A stretch of DNA of 64,000 bases from Streptomyces ferrugineus (GTDB lineage Bacteria; Actinomycetota; Actinomycetes; Streptomycetales; Streptomycetaceae). Where the stretch lies: NCBI RefSeq assembly GCF_015160855.1, contig NZ_CP063373.1, forward strand, positions 3,162,001 through 3,226,000, given 5' to 3'. The notes under the pieces were generated by a model. The model saw only the letters and a program-made list of their open reading frames with translations. It searched no databases and was not told where the DNA came from. How positions within the stretch are numbered: the first letter of the stretch is position 1; each line of letters opens with the position of its first letter. The position numbers were made by a program, and so were the translations under genes. Below are positions 3-8,444 of this stretch, piece by piece.

Positions 3-386
3 GGCCCCAAGCGCGCCCCCAAGAAGCGGCGTCCCACCAGCCCGAAGATCCCCGCCACGGTCTCCATGGAGGACGACGTCCCCGTGGTCACCGAGTGGAC
101 CGCGGGCGGGCTGCCCCAGCGCCGCAGCCGGGTCAAGACCCCGCTCAGCAAGCGCATCGCCGAGCAGGCCGCCATCGAGCAGGCCGAGCGGGAAGGCCGG
201 CCGACCATCTGGTCGACGCGCAAACCCGAGCCCGAGCCCGAGCCGGAGAAGGACGACGAGCCCGCCCCCGGAGCGTGGGTCGAGGCCTTCTGGAACGGCC
301 TCAAGGACAAGCCCGACCCTTACACACTCCAGCCGCGAACCCAACCGGCCCGCCCCGAGGCCGACCACGAGGGGGACACCAAGTGA
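3..386 (+). CDS. cvnA: Conservon sensor-like protein CvnA, C-terminal part only
   Basis: The reading frame is open from the left edge and ends in TGA at 384-386, so only about 127 C-terminal residues are present. They are lysine-, proline- and glutamate-rich and look disordered, with a Glu-Pro stretch (EPEPEPEPEK) near the middle. This fits the cytoplasmic tail of a CvnA protein, a membrane histidine-kinase-like sensor. The identification rests on context: the next three genes are CvnB, CvnC and CvnD in the usual order, and the downstream start overlaps this stop (GTGA). The kinase domain lies outside the window, so whether it is intact cannot be judged. In S. coelicolor the similar rar/cvn9 cluster forms a membrane-associated complex. 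Confidence 0.75.
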   Translation, partial: GPKRAPKKRRPTSPKIPATVSMEDDVPVVTEWTAGGLPQRRSRVKTPLSKRIAEQAAIEQAEREGRPTIWSTRKPEPEPEPEKDDEPAPGAWVEAFWNGLKDKPDPYTLQPRTQPARPEADHEGDTK

Positions 387-790
387 TCCAGCAGCGCGCC
401 AACTTCGACTGGATGCTCAAGGAGCTCCACGACGGCGTACCGGGCATCGAGATGATCGTGGTGCTCTCCGCCGACGGTCTGCGCATCGCCCGCTACGGCG
501 GCGACCCGGACACCGCCGACCGCGTCGCCGCGGCGTGCGCGGGGCTGCAGAGCCTGGCGAGCGCCGTCGCCACGGAGATCCCGAACAGCGACGGCAAGAT
601 GAAGATGGTCCTCATCGAGATCAACGGCGGCTACTTCTATCTGATGGCCGCCGGCGCCAACGCCTATCTCGCCGTGCTCTCCGACACGTTCGCCGAACCC
701 GGACGGATGAGCAACCGCATGTCCGACCTCGTCGCCCGCATCGGCGCCCATCTCACCAGTCCGCCCAGGCGCAACGGGCAGACCGTATGA
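383..790 (+). CDS. cvnB: Conservon protein CvnB, roadblock/LC7 domain
   Basis: A 135-residue protein starting at GTG 383, which overlaps the cvnA stop by 4 nt; a much longer open frame upstream is a shadow of cvnA. The sequence has the MglB/roadblock pattern: an N-terminal helix (NFDWMLKELHDGVPG), a strand with LSADGLRIA, and a second strand around KMVLIEINGGYFYLM. Roadblock proteins dimerise and act on Ras-like GTPases, so the partner is presumably the GTPase CvnD two genes downstream. The stop overlaps the cvnC start (ATGA), implying translational coupling. Confidence 0.92.
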   Translation: MIQQRANFDWMLKELHDGVPGIEMIVVLSADGLRIARYGGDPDTADRVAAACAGLQSLASAVATEIPNSDGKMKMVLIEINGGYFYLMAAGANAYLAVLSDTFAEPGRMSNRMSDLVARIGAHLTSPPRRNGQTV

Positions 791-1188
791 CTCCTCCGCA
801 ACGCCAGCGGCGACACCCCAAGGAACAACCGCCCGCACCGCCCCCCGAGCCCGGCAAGCAGAAGCACCCGGAGCGGCTCTTCGTGGTCGCCGGACCGGAC
901 GGTGGCGAGCGCGACGGCGACCTCGACCTCGTCACGTTAATCGTGGCGCGCGCCGACCCCCCGCCCTCCGCCACGCCGGAGCAGTCGGCGCTGCTCCGGC
1001 TCTGTTCCACCCCCTTGTCCGTGGCCGAGCTGTCGGCCTATCTCAACCTGCCGTTCAGCATGATGACGGTGCTGCTCACCGACATGCTGACGGCCGGACT
1101 GGTGACGGCCCGCAACCCGATCGTGCGCCAGACCGTCGCCGACCGTTCAATCCTCGAAGCGGTGATGCATGGACTTCAAAGGCTCTGA
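787..1188 (+). CDS. cvnC: Conservon protein CvnC (DUF742), contains a TTA codon
   Basis: A 133-residue DUF742 protein. The first 30 residues are Pro/Gln/Lys-rich; the remainder resembles a winged helix (TPEQSALLRLCSTPLSVAEL, then SMMTVLLTDMLTAGLV). It starts at ATG 787 inside the cvnB stop and overlaps cvnD by 20 nt. Codon 51 is TTA (937-939, within DLVTLIVAR). In Streptomyces TTA is read by the bldA tRNA, which becomes abundant late in development, so expression of the middle of this conservon is probably bldA-dependent. The biochemical role of CvnC is unknown beyond its membership in the membrane-associated Cvn complex. Confidence 0.92.
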   Translation: MTPPQRQRRHPKEQPPAPPPEPGKQKHPERLFVVAGPDGGERDGDLDLVTLIVARADPPPSATPEQSALLRLCSTPLSVAELSAYLNLPFSMMTVLLTDMLTAGLVTARNPIVRQTVADRSILEAVMHGLQRL

Positions 1189-1789
1189 CACCGTCCCCGG
1201 TCCGCGGACCGAGGACCAGTTGCCGCACACGGCCGAAGCCGCGGTCAAGATCGTGATCGTGGGCGGCTTCGGCGTCGGAAAGACGACCATGGTCGGCTCG
1301 GTCAGCGAGATCAGGCCGCTGACCACCGAAGAGACCATGACGCAGGCGGGCATCGGCGTCGACGACAACTTCGGCTCGGACACCAAGACGGCGACCACCG
1401 TCGCCATGGACTTCGGCCGCATCAGCATCACCGAGCAGCTCGTGCTGTATCTGTTCGGCACCCCCGGCCAGGAGCGCTTCTGGTTTCTGTGGAACGGGCT
1501 GTTCGACGGCGCGCTGGGCGCGGTGGTGCTGATCGACACCCGCCGCCTCGAGGTCAGCTTCGACGTCATGGGGCGGCTCGAGGAGCGCGGCGTGCCCTTC
1601 GTGGTGGCCGTCAACACCTTCCCGGACGCGCCCCGTTACCCCGTCGACGAACTCCGCACGGCGCTCGACCTGCCCGAGGAGATCCCCATCGTCGAGTGCG
1701 ACGTACGTCGCCGGGCCTCCAGCCGGGACGTCCTGATGACGCTGATGCACTTCCTGCACGCGCTGGCGATGGCGAAGGCCCCCGCCTGA
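1169..1789 (+). CDS. cvnD: Conservon GTPase CvnD
   Basis: A 206-residue small GTP-binding protein, the G-protein-like member of the conservon. The P-loop GFGVGKTT lies at about residues 33-40. A Thr-rich switch region follows (LTTEETMTQAGI), and the G3-like motif FGTPGQERFW is at about 97-106. The usual NKxD appears as VNTFPDA, which deviates from the standard Asn-Lys-x-Asp. The start ATG 1169 lies within cvnC. It probably cycles with CvnB (roadblock) as regulator and CvnA as sensor. Last gene of the tightly overlapping set; a 66-nt gap separates it from the P450. Confidence 0.93.
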   Translation: MDFKGSDTVPGPRTEDQLPHTAEAAVKIVIVGGFGVGKTTMVGSVSEIRPLTTEETMTQAGIGVDDNFGSDTKTATTVAMDFGRISITEQLVLYLFGTPGQERFWFLWNGLFDGALGAVVLIDTRRLEVSFDVMGRLEERGVPFVVAVNTFPDAPRYPVDELRTALDLPEEIPIVECDVRRRASSRDVLMTLMHFLHALAMAKAPA

Positions 1790-1855
1790 GACGCGTGATC
1801 ACAACCCCCCTCACCTCCTGTACACCGGATTCACCTCAGCTTCGGAGCGACCATC

Positions 1856-3325
1856 GTGACGCCTGAATCCTTCTCCCCGACCGGTACGCACGACCCCACG
1901 GCCGCCCCGCCACCCGGCTGCCCCGCGCACGGCATCGGCCCCGGCGGGCTGCGCCGGCTGTACGGCCCCGACGCGGAGGACCTGGGAGCCGTGTACGAGG
2001 AACTGCGCGCCGAGTACGGTGCCGTTGCTCCCGCGTTGCTGCACGAGGACGTGCCGATCTGGGTTGTGCTCGGCCACACCGAGAACATGCACGTGGTGCG
2101 CACTCCCTCGCAGTACACCCGGGACACCCGGCTGTGGAGCGCTCTGCAGGACGGCACGATCAAGCCCGATCACCCGCTGATGCCGATCGTCGCCTGGCAG
2201 CCCATCTGCTGCCACGCCGAGGGCGACGAGCACCTGCGGCTGCGCGGCGCGGTCACGGGCGCCATGTCGACCATCGACCACCGGGGTATCCGCCGCTACA
2301 TCAACCGGGCGACCCAGCACCTCGTCAACAAGTTCTGCGAGGAGGGCGGCGCCGACCTGGTCGCCCAGTTCGCCGAGCACCTGCCGATGGCGGTGATGTG
2401 CGAGATCCTCGGGATGCCCGAGGAGTACAACGACCGCATCGTGCAGGCCGCCCGCGACATGCTCAAGGGCAGCGAGACCGCCATCGCCAGCAACGAATAC
2501 ATCATGGAAGTCCTGATGCGGCTGACCGTACGCCGCCGGACCGACCCCAAGGAGGACTTCACCAGCCACCTGATCAACCACCCGGCGAGGCTCACCGACG
2601 AGGAGGTCGCCCAGCACCTGCGGGTCGTCCTGATCGTCTCGTACGAGGCCACCGCCAATCTGCTGGCCAACGTACTGCGCGTGGTACTCACCGACCCGCG
2701 GTTCCGCGCCCAGCTCAAGGGCGGCCAGATGACGGTGCCGGAGGCGGTCGAGCAGTCCCTGTGGGACGAGCCACCGTTCAGCACCATCCTTCCCTATGTC
2801 GCCAAAGCGGAGACCGAGCTGGGCGGCCAGCGCATCGGTCAGGGAGACGCCCTCATCTTCGGCATCGCGCCGGGCAACGTGGACCCGCGGGTCCGCCCCG
2901 GCCCCAAGGCCAACATGCAGGGCAACCGCTCCCACCTCGCCTTCGGCGGCGGCCCCCACGAGTGCCCGGGCCAGGACATCGGACGCTCCATCGCCGACGT
3001 CGGCGTCGACGCCCTGCTGACCCGCCTCCCGGACGTCCAACTCAGCTGCCCGGAGCACGAACTGCGCTGGCGGTCGTCCATCTCGAACCAGCACCTGGTG
3101 GAACTGCCGGTGAAGTTCGCGCCGAAGCCCCAGCAGGACGTCATGCAGCGGCCCTCCATCAATCCCGTGCCGCCGCAGAGCCCGAACAACTGGCAGGTCA
3201 GCTCGCGGCAGCCGGAGCCCGCGGCTGCGCAGCCCGCCGCCGTGCCGACCCCGGTGGCGGCGCCCGAACAGGCCCGTCGGCTCAGTGTGTTCCGGCGTCT
3301 TCTGCGCTGGTGGCGCGGGGACTGA
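1856..3325 (+). CDS. Conservon-associated cytochrome P450 lacking the EXXR arginine (CYP157-like)
   Basis: A 489-residue P450 starting at GTG 1856. The haem loop FGGGPHECPGQDIG carries the ligand Cys370. The K-helix region, where nearly all P450s have ExxR, reads EQSLW (residues 299-303), so the Glu is kept and the Arg is replaced by Leu. Streptomyces CYP157 enzymes are known for exactly this EQSLW-type variation, so I group it there by motif, not by alignment. The I-helix region (VVLIVSYEATANLL) also lacks the usual AGxDT. The last 75 residues are a Pro/Gln/Ala-rich tail ending in a basic patch (RRLLRWWRGD). P450s are frequent fifth genes of conservons (rarE). Substrate unknown. The last 44 nt overlap the convergent gene. 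Confidence 0.9.
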   Translation: MTPESFSPTGTHDPTAAPPPGCPAHGIGPGGLRRLYGPDAEDLGAVYEELRAEYGAVAPALLHEDVPIWVVLGHTENMHVVRTPSQYTRDTRLWSALQDGTIKPDHPLMPIVAWQPICCHAEGDEHLRLRGAVTGAMSTIDHRGIRRYINRATQHLVNKFCEEGGADLVAQFAEHLPMAVMCEILGMPEEYNDRIVQAARDMLKGSETAIASNEYIMEVLMRLTVRRRTDPKEDFTSHLINHPARLTDEEVAQHLRVVLIVSYEATANLLANVLRVVLTDPRFRAQLKGGQMTVPEAVEQSLWDEPPFSTILPYVAKAETELGGQRIGQGDALIFGIAPGNVDPRVRPGPKANMQGNRSHLAFGGGPHECPGQDIGRSIADVGVDALLTRLPDVQLSCPEHELRWRSSISNQHLVELPVKFAPKPQQDVMQRPSINPVPPQSPNNWQVSSRQPEPAAAQPAAVPTPVAAPEQARRLSVFRRLLRWWRGD

Positions 3326-4286
3326 GCCGACCGGAGCGCCCCGTCCACCCGGCCCAGTTCTCGTACGACGACCAGGCCGTCAGCACACGCGAGCTGACGA
3401 ACCGGTGCTCGCGCCCCGTGATCGGATCGGTGAACTCCAGGACCCGCGCCAGCAGTTGGAGCGGGCGCCGGAAATCACCGTCCGCCACGGGGCCGGTCAC
3501 CTCGGGATAGAGGGGATCGCCGAGGATCGGCACACCCAACGCGCTCATGTGCACCCGCAGTTGGTGTGTCTGCCCGGTACGCGGTACGAGCCGGTACCGG
3601 GCACGCCCGTTCCGGTGATCGAGCAGCTCGACCCGGCTGACGGCGTTGGGCTCGCCCTCGACCTCGCGGGCGGCCAGCACCCCGCGCTCCTTGACGATCC
3701 GGCTCCGCACGGTGCGCGGCAGGTCCAGTGCGGGATCGTACGGGGCCACCGCCTCGTACTCCTTGCCCACCCGCCTGTCGCGGAACAATGTCTGGTACGC
3801 GCCGCGCTCCTCGGGCCGCACGGTGAACAGCACCAGCCCCGCCGTCAGCCGGTCCAGCCGGTGCGCTGCGCCCAGCGTCGGGAGGCCCAGCTCCCGCCGC
3901 AGCCGTGCCAGGGCCGTCTCGGTGACATGGCTGCCGCGTGGCGTGGTGGCCAGGAAGTGCGGCTTGTCAGCCACTACGAGGTGTTCGTCCCGGTACACGA
4001 CCTCGACTGCGAACGGCACCCGCTCCTCGGCCGGCAGCTCGCGGTGGAACCACACGAACATCCCCGGCACGTATGCCATGTCCCGCGGTACCGGGCGCCC
4101 GGTGACGTCGACTACCCGTCCCTCGTCCAGCATGGTGTCGATCACCTCGGCCCCGGCCGCCAGTCGCGCCACGAGATGGTCCCGCACGGTCGTCCACGCG
4201 TCGCCGGCCGGCAACCGCACCCGCACCGGGTCCACCCCGTCGCGCTGCGGCAGGGGGGAGGGCGGTGCTGGGGTGCGGCGTCTCAT
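3282..4286 (-). CDS. RluA-family pseudouridine synthase
   Basis: A 334-residue protein of the RluA/RluD family, which isomerises specific uridines in rRNA or tRNA. The catalytic block HRLDRLTAGLVLF contains the active Asp, and the C-terminal signature RTGQTHQLRVHMSALG is intact. The family-typical start is ATG 4286 (MRRRTPAPP); a longer frame to 4475 is unlikely to be translated. An N-terminal region before the catalytic domain may include a small S4-like or spacer segment. The stop lies inside the P450 gene on the other strand, giving a 44-bp tail-to-tail overlap. Target RNA cannot be told from sequence. Confidence 0.9.
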   Translation of the reverse strand: MRRRTPAPPSPLPQRDGVDPVRVRLPAGDAWTTVRDHLVARLAAGAEVIDTMLDEGRVVDVTGRPVPRDMAYVPGMFVWFHRELPAEERVPFAVEVVYRDEHLVVADKPHFLATTPRGSHVTETALARLRRELGLPTLGAAHRLDRLTAGLVLFTVRPEERGAYQTLFRDRRVGKEYEAVAPYDPALDLPRTVRSRIVKERGVLAAREVEGEPNAVSRVELLDHRNGRARYRLVPRTGQTHQLRVHMSALGVPILGDPLYPEVTGPVADGDFRRPLQLLARVLEFTDPITGREHRFVSSRVLTAWSSYENWAGWTGRSGRLSPRATSAEDAGTH

Positions 4287-5018
4287 CAGGGTCAAGCGTA
4301 CGAGGAGCGGCGAGGGCGGGGCGAGGCGATGCCGACCGACGCGAGCCTCTCCGTGCAACTGCGCTCCGGCTGGGTGCCGCTCGCTCCGGCGCATCAGCGC
4401 GTTCAGCGATGCATGTCCTAAAACGACTGTCCAGCGTGATTGCGTGATTGTCTTTGTACCCCCATGCGCCCCCATTCGATCACTTGTCGCCGTGCGGCGG
4501 TCCTGCGTCTACTGGTAGTCGTCCGCGGAGCTCCATTGCCTTGCGCATACCGTCGTCCCGGTGACGTGAACCTCGTGGGAGCCGCCATGACCACTGTTCA
4601 GCGGCCAGTCTCCGCTTGCCTGCACGTACCCGGCCGTCCCCCCTCGGTCATCCGCCGCTCAGTTCCCTGACCGCGGAAGGGGAGCGCGTCCTGAGCCGGC
4701 GGTTGCTCAGCCTTGCGAGCGAAGCATTCACGACAGAATCAAAGGCGTCCACTTCCGGTCTGGACTGAACTGCGATGTGATTAAAAGGCGTACAGCCGAA
4801 GGCGGCGCCCGTGCTCGCGCCCTCATGGAAGGGGAAGTCCGTGCCACCGCTCGTCCTGTCGCTGCCCACCAAGGCCGCTCCTGGCCGGGACACTCCGCAG
4901 CGCGCCCGTGAGACATCGATCGCTCACCGACTCCTCGGCTTCTCGCCGCGAGAGCAGGCAACCTGACGACACCTCACTCGCCTCGGCCAACTCCGACGCC
5001 CCAGACATGGAGGACTCA
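4287..5018 (+). other. Long non-coding region upstream of the terpene synthase
   Basis: About 730 bp without a convincing gene. It is less GC-rich and less codon-biased than its surroundings, with AT-containing patches (for example TGTGATTAAAAGG near 4777). One short frame at 4588-4671 would encode 27 residues after a GTGGGAG sequence, but has no recognisable family. The region probably holds the promoter(s) of the terpene cassette and possibly remnants of an older gene. I could not assign a promoter with confidence. Confidence 0.5.
5009..5013 (+). promoter_or_regulatory. Ribosome binding site that fixes the terpene synthase start
   Basis: GGAGG, 5 nt before GTG 5019. It favours 5019 over the in-frame GTG at 4908 and ATG at 5007, neither of which has a comparable site. 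Confidence 0.7.
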
Positions 5019-6074
5019 GTGCTCGCCATGATCCCGACGTTCGCGGAGCCCACACCGCCGACCGTAAGTCCATACGCCCCGAGGATCGAGGAGTACGTCC
5101 GCTCTCTCGGAGAGAGCCTCGGGTTGACAGAGACACAAGACGGCCGGGAGCGGCTGGAGGCAGGCTACGGGCACTTTGTCGCCTGGACCTATCCGGAAGC
5201 CTCGTTCCGCGATCTCTGCCTCTGCGCGGAATGGCTCTTCTTCACCTTCATCCTGGACGATTTGCACACTCTGAAGGTCTATGACACTCCGGAAGCCTGG
5301 GATCCGGTTCACCGGCGTCTGATGGACATCATCAACACCGGAAAAGACCTTGCTCCCGCACAGGAGCAGACTCGGTTCACCACGGCGCTGGCGGATCTGT
5401 CGATTCGTACGGGCGAAAGGCTTTCGCCGACGCTTCATGCGCGGTTGAACCATCATCTGGATTTATTCTTCCAAGGATTCGCCGAGGAATCCATGAATCG
5501 GTTCCGCGGTACCCCCCCGGGGATCGACAGCTTCACCCAGACCAGGCGACTTTCCGTGGGAATGGAGTTCGGCTTCGACCTGGTTGAGCTCAGCCTGGGC
5601 GTGGAGGTACCCGAGGACATATACGAGACGGGTCTGTTCCGGGAGATCGTTGAAGCCGCGAGCGACGTGGTTGCCTGGCAGAACGACCTGCATTCAATTC
5701 ACCTGGACGACAAGCGGGGAGATTTCCATAACGTCGTCATCGTCATGCAGCATGCCGCCGGAATCTCGCTGCAGGAGGCCATCGACGCGGCCGTCGCAAG
5801 GGTTCAGGAGCGAGTCGCCGACTTTCTGGCCGCCGAAAAGCAGCTCTTGCCCTTCCTGACGAGCCGTGGTGTGCCGCCCCGCATCCGCGAAGAAGTCCTG
5901 AGGGTCACTGCCGGAATGCGGCAGTGGACCAATGGGTGCCTGCAGTGGTACGGGAACACCACCCGCTACGCGATCCCCACCACCTCGGGCCAGGCCGAAC
6001 AGCAGCATGCACACCTCGGAGCCCTGTTCCCGAGTCAGGATGACGCGTCCCGGACTGTTGCGGTTGACCACTGA
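5019..6074 (+). CDS. Class I terpene synthase with altered metal-binding motifs; TTA codon
   Basis: A 351-residue bacterial class I terpene cyclase, expected to ionise farnesyl or another prenyl diphosphate with Mg2+. Family features are the N-terminal TPPTVSPYA, the RRLSVGMEFGFDL segment (diphosphate-sensing Arg and the G-helix break) and the C-terminal RY pair (TTRYAIP). Both metal motifs deviate. The first is DDLHT at residues 80-84, with no acid at the usual third position. The NSE triad reads NDLHSIHLD at 222-230, with Asp for Glu. Codon 149 is TTA (5463-5465), so translation probably needs bldA tRNA. A P450 follows 44 nt downstream, typical of a two-gene oxidised-terpenoid cluster. The product cannot be predicted. 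Confidence 0.9.
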   Translation: MLAMIPTFAEPTPPTVSPYAPRIEEYVRSLGESLGLTETQDGRERLEAGYGHFVAWTYPEASFRDLCLCAEWLFFTFILDDLHTLKVYDTPEAWDPVHRRLMDIINTGKDLAPAQEQTRFTTALADLSIRTGERLSPTLHARLNHHLDLFFQGFAEESMNRFRGTPPGIDSFTQTRRLSVGMEFGFDLVELSLGVEVPEDIYETGLFREIVEAASDVVAWQNDLHSIHLDDKRGDFHNVVIVMQHAAGISLQEAIDAAVARVQERVADFLAAEKQLLPFLTSRGVPPRIREEVLRVTAGMRQWTNGCLQWYGNTTRYAIPTTSGQAEQQHAHLGALFPSQDDASRTVAVDH

Positions 6075-6118
6075 GCGGCTCGCCGACCACCTGGATCGAC
6101 AGAGAAGGGCCACGCGCC

Positions 6119-7462
6119 ATGGCAACGGACCATGAAGGCATCACACAGGCTCCCGGGGCACTCCCGATCGTCGGGCATCTGTTTCCACTGCTCAGAGACC
6201 CGCTGGGTTTTCTGAAAACCCTCCCGTCCTATGGTGACTTGGTGCAGATTCGGCTGGGCCCGCAAACAGCCGTCGTGGTCTGCCGGCCCGAACTCGTTCA
6301 GGAAGTCCTCCTGCACGACCGAATATTCGACAAGGGCGGACCCATCATCGAACGGGTCGGAAATGCGCTGGGGGACGGAATCGCCTCGTGCCCGCACAGC
6401 GCCCACCGGCGACAGCGCCGCGAGTTGCAGCCCGCCTTCTCTCGCACCTGCCTGCGTGAGTACGCCGCCATCATGACCGAGCAAATAGACACGCTCACCG
6501 CCGGCTGGCACGACGGGCCGACCATCGATGTGGGCTCACAGATGTACGCTCTGGCGAGCGGCACCATTGCGCGGACATTGTTCACGGCCGAAGCCGCGCG
6601 ACCCGCTGTGGAGGCCGTCACGGAGAACCTGCCGGACATCTTCCGAGGCATCTACCAGCAGGCTCTCCTCCCACCCTCGCTGCGCCGTCTGCCGCTCCCT
6701 TCGAACCTGCGCTACGAGCGGGCCCGCAACCGAGCGTGGGGCGAGGTCAGCAAGGCCATCAGCTGGTACCGGCAGGACGGCGAGGGCCACAGCGATGTGC
6801 TGTCGATGCTCCTCGCGACCCATGACGACGCGGGAGAAGCCCTCGGGGACGCCGAGGTCCACGCCCAGATCATGACTCTGCTCGTCGCCGGCATCGACAC
6901 CACCGCGGTGGCCCTCACCTGGGCCGTCCATCTCCTGTGCCAACACCCCGATGTGCAGGAGCGGTTGCACGTCGAGGCAGCCAAGGTTCTCGGCACCCGA
7001 GCGGCCACCTGGGAGGATCTCCCACAGCTGGAGCTGGCCGGCAGGGTCATCACCGAGACACTGCGGCTCTACCCTCCCGGGTGGATCTTCACGCGCATGA
7101 CCACCACGGAGGCCCGGCTGGCGAACGCCGTGATCCCCCCCGACACCACCCTGGTCTACAGCCCGTACCTCATGCACCACGACGCACGGTTCAATCGGCG
7201 CCCCGACTCCTTCGATCCCGACCGGTGGCTTCCGGAGCATGAGCATGTGCGCGGCGCTTTCATCCCGTTCGGCGGAGGTGCGCGCAAGTGCATCGGTGAC
7301 GCCTATGCGATGAACCTGGCGACACTGGCCCTGTCCACGATCGTGGCCCGATGGCGACTCTCGCACGGTGACGTTCGACGACCGCGCATCGAACCCCGGA
7401 TGACCCTGTCCCCCAACAAGGTTCGGGTACGAGTCGCATGTGTGGAGCGAGCGCCGGTGTGA
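6119..7462 (+). CDS. Cytochrome P450 of the terpene cassette
   Basis: A 447-residue P450 with a full set of motifs: I-helix VAGIDTTAVAL, K-helix ExxR in TETLRLYPPGW, the PERF-region FDPDRWLPE, and the haem loop PFGGGARKCIGDAYA with Cys391. The N-terminus has the proline-rich start of soluble, eukaryote-like bacterial P450s (APGALPIVGHLFPLLRDP), as in CYP170 and the pentalenene oxygenases, with no membrane anchor. It lies 44 nt after the terpene synthase and has a ribosome site (GAAGGG) before ATG 6119, so the pair is presumably one transcript and this enzyme oxidises the cyclised hydrocarbon. GC and codon use are lower than in the flanking genes. No ferredoxin or reductase gene is adjacent. 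Confidence 0.9.
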   Translation: MATDHEGITQAPGALPIVGHLFPLLRDPLGFLKTLPSYGDLVQIRLGPQTAVVVCRPELVQEVLLHDRIFDKGGPIIERVGNALGDGIASCPHSAHRRQRRELQPAFSRTCLREYAAIMTEQIDTLTAGWHDGPTIDVGSQMYALASGTIARTLFTAEAARPAVEAVTENLPDIFRGIYQQALLPPSLRRLPLPSNLRYERARNRAWGEVSKAISWYRQDGEGHSDVLSMLLATHDDAGEALGDAEVHAQIMTLLVAGIDTTAVALTWAVHLLCQHPDVQERLHVEAAKVLGTRAATWEDLPQLELAGRVITETLRLYPPGWIFTRMTTTEARLANAVIPPDTTLVYSPYLMHHDARFNRRPDSFDPDRWLPEHEHVRGAFIPFGGGARKCIGDAYAMNLATLALSTIVARWRLSHGDVRRPRIEPRMTLSPNKVRVRVACVERAPV

Positions 7463-7468
7463 CAGGAG

Positions 7469-7508
7469 CTCTTCCCGTCCGTGCCGGGCTCTTCCCGTCC
7501 GTGCCGGG
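7469..7508 (+). repeat. 20-bp tandem duplication
   Basis: The unit CTCTTCCCGTCCGTGCCGGG occurs twice head to tail just after the P450 stop. It looks like a local replication-slippage duplication at the end of the cassette; no function is evident. Confidence 0.7.
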
Positions 7509-7528
7509 TCGGCCGAGTTCATGCCGAA

Positions 7529-7556
7529 GGGGCGGCACCCGCGAGAGTGCCGCCCC
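7529..7556. terminator. Bidirectional hairpin terminator
   Basis: GGGGCGGCAC and GTGCCGCCCC form a perfect 10-bp stem around an 8-nt loop, followed by GTTT. It sits between two convergent genes, the terpene P450 and the siderophore-interacting protein, and can serve both. Confidence 0.75.
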
Positions 7557-7576
7557 GTTTCGGCGTCCACGAAGGC

Positions 7577-8422
7577 CTACGCCGCCGGCGCCGACCCCTC
7601 CTGCTCCGCCTCGATCCGCGCGTTCCAGTCCCGCTTGGAGGCCTGCCAGCCGTCCTCGTCGTGACCGAGCCGCCAGTAACCGGAGATCGACAGGTCCTCG
7701 CGGGGCACGGCACGCTCGACCCGCAGCAGATGGCGCAGCTCCTTCACGAAATGCGCCTCGCCGTGCACGAACGCGTGCACCCGCCCTTCGGGGAACTCCA
7801 GCGCGCGTACGGCCTCGACCAGCATCTCGCCGACGGGACGCGAGCCGCGGTGCAGCCAGATCACCTCCACATCGGAGTCGATCTTCTGCTCCTCCTCCGG
7901 ACCGGCGATCTCCACGAACGCGTACGCCACGGCACCGTCGGGCAGCGACTCCAGGGCGCGGGCGATGGCGGGCAGCGCGCTCTCGTCACCCACCAGCAGA
8001 TGCCAGTCGGCATCCGGGTCGGGGGCGTAGGCACCGCCGGGACCCATGAACCGCACGGTCTCGCCCGGCCGGGCGCGCAGCGCCCACGGGCCGGCCAGGC
8101 CCTCGTCACCGTGCAGCACGAAGTCCAGGGTCAGCTCGCGATGCTCCGGATCCCAGGCCCGCACGGTGTACGTCCGCGTCACCGGCCACTGCTCGCGCGG
8201 CAGCTCCTCGCGGATGCGCTCCAGGTCGAAGGGCTCGGGGTAGCTCACACCCGGAGGGGAGAACAGCATCTTCACGTAATGATCCGTGCAGGTGTCCGCC
8301 GCGAACTCGGCGAGCCCCTCACCGCCCAGCACCACACGCTGCATGTGCGGGGTCAGCCGTTCGGTACGGATGACCTGCGCGGAGTGGGGCTTCCGCGGCT
8401 TGCGGGCAGGGCGTAGCGCCAT
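7577..8422 (-). CDS. Siderophore-interacting protein (NAD(P)H ferric-siderophore reductase)
   Basis: A 281-residue cytoplasmic flavoprotein of the SIP/ViuB family, which releases iron from imported ferric siderophores. The N-terminal FAD-binding barrel contains RTYTVRAWD (residues about 87-95) and the phosphate-binding segment GPGGAYAP. The C-terminal NAD(P)H-binding part contains LVGDESALPAIARALE. The start is ATG 8422, with GGAGG 6 nt upstream; an ATG at 8443 would lie at the edge of the operator and is not used. An iron-box palindrome directly upstream implies repression by a DtxR/DmdR1-type regulator in iron-replete cells. Confidence 0.92.
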   Translation of the reverse strand: MALRPARKPRKPHSAQVIRTERLTPHMQRVVLGGEGLAEFAADTCTDHYVKMLFSPPGVSYPEPFDLERIREELPREQWPVTRTYTVRAWDPEHRELTLDFVLHGDEGLAGPWALRARPGETVRFMGPGGAYAPDPDADWHLLVGDESALPAIARALESLPDGAVAYAFVEIAGPEEEQKIDSDVEVIWLHRGSRPVGEMLVEAVRALEFPEGRVHAFVHGEAHFVKELRHLLRVERAVPREDLSISGYWRLGHDEDGWQASKRDWNARIEAEQEGSAPAA

Positions 8423-8444
8423 CACTGGCCTCCCTCGTTCCAAG

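Follow-up and report, generated by a model that had tools for sequence, protein, structure and literature searches.

The gene pair at positions 5019 to 7462 of a 64,000 nt stretch of the Streptomyces ferrugineus genome, the whole of which is referred to here as the window, is very probably an isoishwarane cassette, in which a terpene synthase would form the hydrocarbon and a cytochrome P450 would then oxidise it. The genome consists of one contig of 9,959,088 bases. A preliminary description, made from the sequence alone, had presented the pair as a terpene synthase/P450 cassette with the motifs DDLHT and ND-S-D, an RY pair and the fold markers of the family, and all of these could be read in the sequence. 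Its proposal that the altered motifs may mean a new product was set aside, since the motifs occur throughout the clade and the enzyme has a probable characterised orthologue.

Organisation of the cassette

The features of the cassette and its flanks are listed in Table 1. The reading frame of the synthase is open from 4908 and its start was placed at GTG 5019. This start is upheld by the cassette alignment, in which L006 and L016 show an ATG at the corresponding position, and by a GGAGG sequence 5' of the start in nine cassettes, window included, i.e. those with an intact 5' end; L011, with a rearranged 5' end, was kept out of this count. As described before, the P450 gene follows on the same strand after 44 nt (6075-6118), and the G + C content of the synthase (61.6%) and P450 (66.2%) genes is lower than that of the window (71.2%). 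The upstream region of approximately 730 bp was also found again, as the distance from the synthase to the inferred start of the RluA-like gene at about 4286.

Table 1. Features of the terpene cassette and its flanks (positions in the window)
Feature	Position	Strand	Basis
Conservon GTPase gene	1169-1789		Ahead of conservon P450
Conservon-type P450, EQSLW where ExxR is expected	1856..3325	+	Position after conservon GTPase gene
RluA-family pseudouridine synthase (upstream flank; probable start)	3282..4286	-	PF00849
Conserved upstream block, 32 bp, probable promoter or operator (role inferred)	4750..4781	+	Cassette alignment, genome searches
Ribosome-binding site GGAGGA	5009..5014	+	GGAGG in nine cassettes
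Class I terpene synthase, 351 aa, probable isoishwarane synthase	5019..6074	+	PF19086, start comparison, orthology and elimination
First metal motif DDLHT, third acid absent	5256..5270 (residues 80-84)	+	DD[LV]HT in 26/26 distinct clade members
TTA leucine codon 149 of synthase	5463..5465	+	In frame
Second metal motif NDLHSIHLD, Asp for Glu, Leu for Lys/Arg	5682..5708	+	Asp in 26/26
Cytochrome P450, 447 aa, probable oxidase of synthase product	6119..7462	+	PF00067, motifs, co-occurrence
Siderophore-interacting protein (SIP) gene, downstream flank	7577..8443	-	PF08021, PF04954

The synthase scored 134.5 bits against PF19086 (cut-off 23.7), which places it among the class I terpene synthases. 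In its first motif the DD is kept and the third acid is missing. The triad reads N222-D223-L-H-S226-I-H-L229-D230, so that the literal NSE pattern NDxxSxx(K/R)E is not matched: N and S are kept, Asp stands for Glu, and Leu229 replaces the usual Lys/Arg before the triad Glu position, a point absent from the preliminary description. Other catalytic anchors are in place, namely the diphosphate sensor Arg176, 46 residues before the triad, and the RY pair (R316-Y317). Pro59 and Leu66 lie 21 and 14 residues ahead of the first motif, and Arg142/Glu190 and Asn238 are kept as well; these further class I anchors (Pro, Leu, Arg, Arg/Glu, Asn) are named in the available part of PMC8450962. Membership of the family is thus claimed on the Pfam match, these anchors and the probable characterised orthologue, and not on the literal NSE motif. 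The AlphaFold2 model of the enzyme, built on a 20-row alignment, was confident (mean pLDDT 89.3); this alignment, which also underlies the profile, holds 20 of the 28 rows of the clade search alignment.

Assignment of the product

None of the NCBIfam models reached its cut-off with the synthase or the P450 of the window. The scores of the synthase were 137.7 bits for isoafricanol (cut-off 500), 102 for epi-isozizaene (675) and 97.9 for pentalenene synthase (675), and models of characterised synthases were also far under cut-off for the four clade members tried. The product was assigned by orthology and elimination. A (+)-isoishwarane synthase with a clustered P450, SlIWS of Streptomyces lincolnensis (Xu, Rinkel, Dickschat 2021), is known to us through citing papers. 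In the parts of these at hand, the enzyme is said to share a gene cluster with a P450 that gives an oxidation product called unidentified (PMC12723471), its strain is given as NRRL 2936 (PMC10301674), and a conserved Phe near the first motif is reported as essential for it (PMC9303655). The corresponding Phe77 is kept in the clade rows that were compared for active-site positions.

S. lincolnensis strain L4 (L009) carries a cassette at the same locus as the window. The synthase of a further genome, G313, is 98.6% identical to that of strain L4, and G313 was for this reason taken as S. lincolnensis. It contains five PF19086 domains in four proteins, and a PF03936 search of this genome gave no match. 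The first protein has two domains, an architecture that we take to be of the geosmin type. The second is an epi-isozizaene synthase over the NCBIfam cut-off, with an adjoining P450. The third is over the cut-off of encapsulin cargo 2, presumably a match of the 2-MIB type, and no P450 match was present within 12 kb of it. The fourth, with its P450, is the orthologue of the window synthase at the same locus (82% identity for the synthase, 81% for the P450). Since the other synthases of G313 are of geosmin, epi-isozizaene and 2-MIB types, and the published enzyme is, according to the citing papers, clustered with a P450, the window enzyme is most likely the orthologue of the published isoishwarane synthase. 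By its own terms, the preliminary description would be refuted by a closely related, characterised enzyme bearing these motifs and having a known product, and the S. lincolnensis isoishwarane synthase, as far as it is known through those papers, appears by elimination to be such an enzyme.

Active-site positions were mapped through epi-isozizaene synthase, using a list of 30 positions that we take to be those from work on that enzyme. All 30 are identical between the window and S. lincolnensis; 67 positions differ overall, and a sequence difference of 18% can change a terpene product. Elimination, the identity of the mapped pocket and Phe77 together lead us to expect isoishwarane and its subsequent oxidation. 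The two systems also differ in that the window strain lacks the downstream permease, PadR and ABC genes that S. lincolnensis has, and the TTA codon is in the synthase gene in the window but in the P450 gene in S. lincolnensis.

In the proposed pathway, the synthase would bind farnesyl diphosphate (FPP) and magnesium in the class I site formed by DD, N-S-D, Arg176 and RY. Ionised FPP would then be cyclised, probably via germacrene A, to the tetracyclic sesquiterpene isoishwarane, and the P450 would oxidise this hydrocarbon. The germacrene A route is suggested by an unrelated enzyme that, according to the part of PMC12723471 available, gives germacrene A, aristolochene and valencene alongside isoishwarane. 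Transcription of the two genes probably starts from a single promoter close to the conserved block, and a TTA codon in either of them would link the output to the bldA tRNA, and so to late growth.

The partner P450

The P450 of the window scored 230.9 bits against PF00067, and its motifs AGIDTT, ETLR and FGGGARKC include both the ExxR and the heme Cys. Its closest NCBIfam models were pentalenene oxygenase (NF045812, 445.4 bits, cut-off 800) and albaflavenone oxygenase (362 bits); the closest PDB chain was 3dbg (264 bits), which we take to be CYP170A1. The pair thus resembles two known systems in part. It shares the two-gene synthase-P450 plan with epi-isozizaene synthase/CYP170A1 (albaflavenone), to which the closest PDB chain also points, but epi-isozizaene synthase is on another branch of the tree than the window synthase, and the score of the latter with its model is far under cut-off. 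Likewise, the oxygenase of the pentalenene synthase/pentalenene oxygenase (PtlI) pair is the nearest model, but the cut-offs of both models of that pair are missed. In the genus, the P450 (E 1e-130) was found in 6 of 392 genomes, the same six that have an intact or near-intact synthase.

Metal motifs and the clade

A protein search with the window synthase gave 27 matches, including the query itself and an outlier with about 25% identity. Of the clade members, 17 from Streptomyces and environmental sources were 77-84% identical to the window, and a further eight (Nocardia, Rhizocola, Umezawaea, one Streptomyces and others) were 46-58% identical. Nocardia thraciensis has two of them, P0021 (53%) and P0024 (50%), which are probably paralogues on one contig. 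When the 7999 best word-sharing candidates were scored in a profile protein search, no further clade member was found. The motifs, rather than being peculiar to this cyclase, are common to all 26 distinct members, and the residue preceding the triad Asp is Leu, Val or Ile in each of them. In a tree of 52 rows (14 of the 26 clade members and 38 others; duplicate rows of L004 and L012 were dropped), the clade was separated from all other rows by a branch supported at 100/100.

That the altered metal motifs indicate a synthase with a different, new product is unlikely. The clade is indeed separate in the tree, and Asp at the Glu position was found in only 1 of 38 distinct domains outside it, among the nearest matches. 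However, the motifs are clade-wide and shared with the probable isoishwarane synthase, with which all mapped pocket positions agree. The one outside case (L059, in G776) is a Streptomyces terpene synthase with the triad NDTFTVRKD, in which the Lys is kept. Loss of the third acid has moreover been reported in active enzymes, in the parts seen of PMC10509563 for epi-isozizaene synthase (NbEIZS, DDHRN) and sesterviolene synthase (StSS, DDFIV), and of PMC8450962 for SmTS1 (NDLTV). These three resemble the window synthase in this respect but, as described there, have Glu as the last triad residue where the window clade has Asp. The third acid is likewise missing from the second domain of the two-domain synthases of geosmin type. 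A full-text literature search with the string DDLHT gave no match, which is uninformative, since alignments sit in figures and supplements, and a search on Glu-to-Asp triad variants gave no match to the variant terms among the 20 of 28 papers listed.

Damage to the motifs in a decaying, inactive enzyme would be a further explanation, which we regard as extremely unlikely. Altered or missing motifs did accompany poor activity in one Streptomyces branch (PMC10509563, in the part available), the 5' end of the L011 synthase is rearranged, and the copy in genome G350 is a broken fragment; against this, the changed residues are fixed in 26 members with 46-84% identity to the window, and the other catalytic anchors are kept.

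The Umezawaea endophytica relative (L012 784-18496; 46% identity) lies within a terpenoid cluster with a polyprenyl synthetase, ispH, dxs, ispG, a squalene-hopene-cyclase-like protein and further terpene synthases. Because this relative adjoins the polyprenyl synthetase and squalene-hopene-cyclase-like genes, the substrates of the whole clade may extend beyond FPP. The surroundings of this relative, and of the broken G350 copy, which adjoins polyprenyl synthetase pieces, could also suggest that the window enzyme is a diterpene synthase using GGPP or the product of a class II cyclase. This is very unlikely: the relatives concerned are just 46-58% identical to the window, no prenyl transferase was seen next to the cassette in the window or in L006-L011, and the window P450 is nearest to sesquiterpene oxidases.

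TTA codons

The in-frame TTA at 5463 noted before is codon 149 of the synthase, and bldA control of the cassette, judged from the codons of its relatives, is probable. In total 10 non-redundant cassettes were compared, leaving out G313 (98% identical to L009) and G062 (the same as L011). Nine of them contain TTA codons, 11 altogether, two in the synthase (both codon 149) and nine in the P450 gene; the exception is L016. The codons occupy seven distinct positions, codon 46 of the P450 being common to four cassettes. From the leucine codon use of the cassettes themselves 1.38 TTA codons would be expected, assuming independence and setting shared descent aside; the Poisson probabilities, which also ignore shared descent, are 2e-7 for 11 codons and 6e-4 for seven positions. 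Neighbour frames held six TTA codons, none of them beyond codon 59 and all in RluA and exonuclease frames judged to be over-extended. This is a slight undercount, with short frames for RluA (L010, L011) and for PadR and OpuA (L009).

Chance occurrence in genes of low G + C content, rather than bldA control, is a rather improbable alternative. The third-position G + C content is 0.77 in the cassettes and 0.90 in the neighbours, the sharing of codon 46 makes some of the codons non-independent, and one cassette has none; the excess over expectation and the number of distinct positions, independence assumed, speak against it. The spread of TTA over positions and genes favours selection for bldA control of the whole pathway, through whichever gene.

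Variation at the locus

In L006-L011 the gene order is conservon GTPase, conservon P450, RluA gene (-), synthase, P450 and APC permease (-), followed by a PadR regulator, ABC transporter genes, SIP (-), an exonuclease-like gene (-) and OpuA. Small extra genes are present in L010 and L011, and the permease is degraded in L011. In the window the P450 is directly next to SIP (7463-7576), without the permease, PadR, ABC and ABC-2 genes. In L104 5-6517 (G313) a C-terminal piece of the permease adjoins the P450 and a full permease follows approximately 4.9 kb on, which differs from strain L4. L011 9868-10945 (Streptomyces sp. uw30) holds a synthase without its first 28 residues, preceded immediately by an inverted piece matching residues 133-183; this is either an inversion or an assembly error.

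The synthase (E 1e-60) was found in 7 of 392 genus genomes, the G350 copy being a fragment that has pieces of a transposase and a prenyl transferase next to it. The 1.5-kb flank was inspected at 22 RluA loci of other genomes: permease was found at 4, SIP at 7, none of the probed genes at 10, and the remaining one was G001. Since the contents differ among these loci, the interval between RluA and permease/SIP is variable. Of the suggested insertion between housekeeping genes, the variable interval is borne out, but the upstream flank consists of a conservon, with its GTPase and own P450, and the RluA-like gene. The conservon P450 is possibly a signalling neighbour of the cassette; the available parts of two conservon papers (PMC13343842, PMC8510531), consulted as background, contain no link between conservons and terpene cassettes.

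The upstream block was recognisable in nine aligned cassettes and occurs as a single copy in its own genome. At up to 3 mismatches it was found in 7 of 392 genus genomes, i.e. five carriers (window included), G001 and G268, and six of the seven have a cassette at the RluA locus, that of G001 being a different pair. G268 differs from the block at 3 positions, its 3.0-kb locus is free of cassette genes, and the match was taken as chance. In the sixth carrier, G062, the 5' end is rearranged and the block is absent. A sigma-factor reading of the block was weighed by eye and dropped.

At this same locus and behind the same block, G001 has a different synthase and P450 (L079, G001:C229:1-8000, 240-2677, minus strand), 23% and 43% identical to those of the window, respectively. 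Its synthase matched the 4-epi-cubebol and selinadiene synthase models best, both under cut-off, and NcECS among PDB entries; among the matches in 372 genomes it had no relative above 35% identity. A TTA is present at codon 39 of the frame, possibly ahead of the true start. The leader, block included, is 75% identical to L006 over 484 nt and 81% to L008 over 501 nt, with patchier similarity to the four other relatives. The similarity ends before the synthase and resumes at 83-89% in the permease tail in all five relatives having the permease. On the conservon P450 plus RluA proteins G001 nests among 7 carriers; a carriers-only clade was not obtained, but neither is it rejected (p-AU 0.148). 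The observation depends on a single draft assembly (630 contigs, 79% complete). It could reflect exchange of the gene pair downstream of a retained promoter, or a different history with the same outcome.

A tentative possibility is that the interval from the RluA gene to permease/SIP, beside the conservon, acts as an exchange site, at which the upstream element and bldA dependence are kept by selection and the synthase-P450 pair can be swapped for an unrelated one. A literature search on swapping at this locus gave nothing relevant by title, and swapping could still be published.

Implications

With the present assignment a supposed new cyclase becomes a probable known one, and the question shifts to the oxidised product. 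Attention now falls on this product, on the recurring TTA codons and on the unlike pair of G001. For the clade as a whole, Asp at the third metal position combined with loss of the third acid is a stable arrangement that presumably works. If the exchange site is real, it would change the terpenoid of a strain without rewiring its timing. Recurrent TTA codons at varied positions and a different cassette behind the same block may thus offer a test case in which timing stays fixed and chemistry changes.
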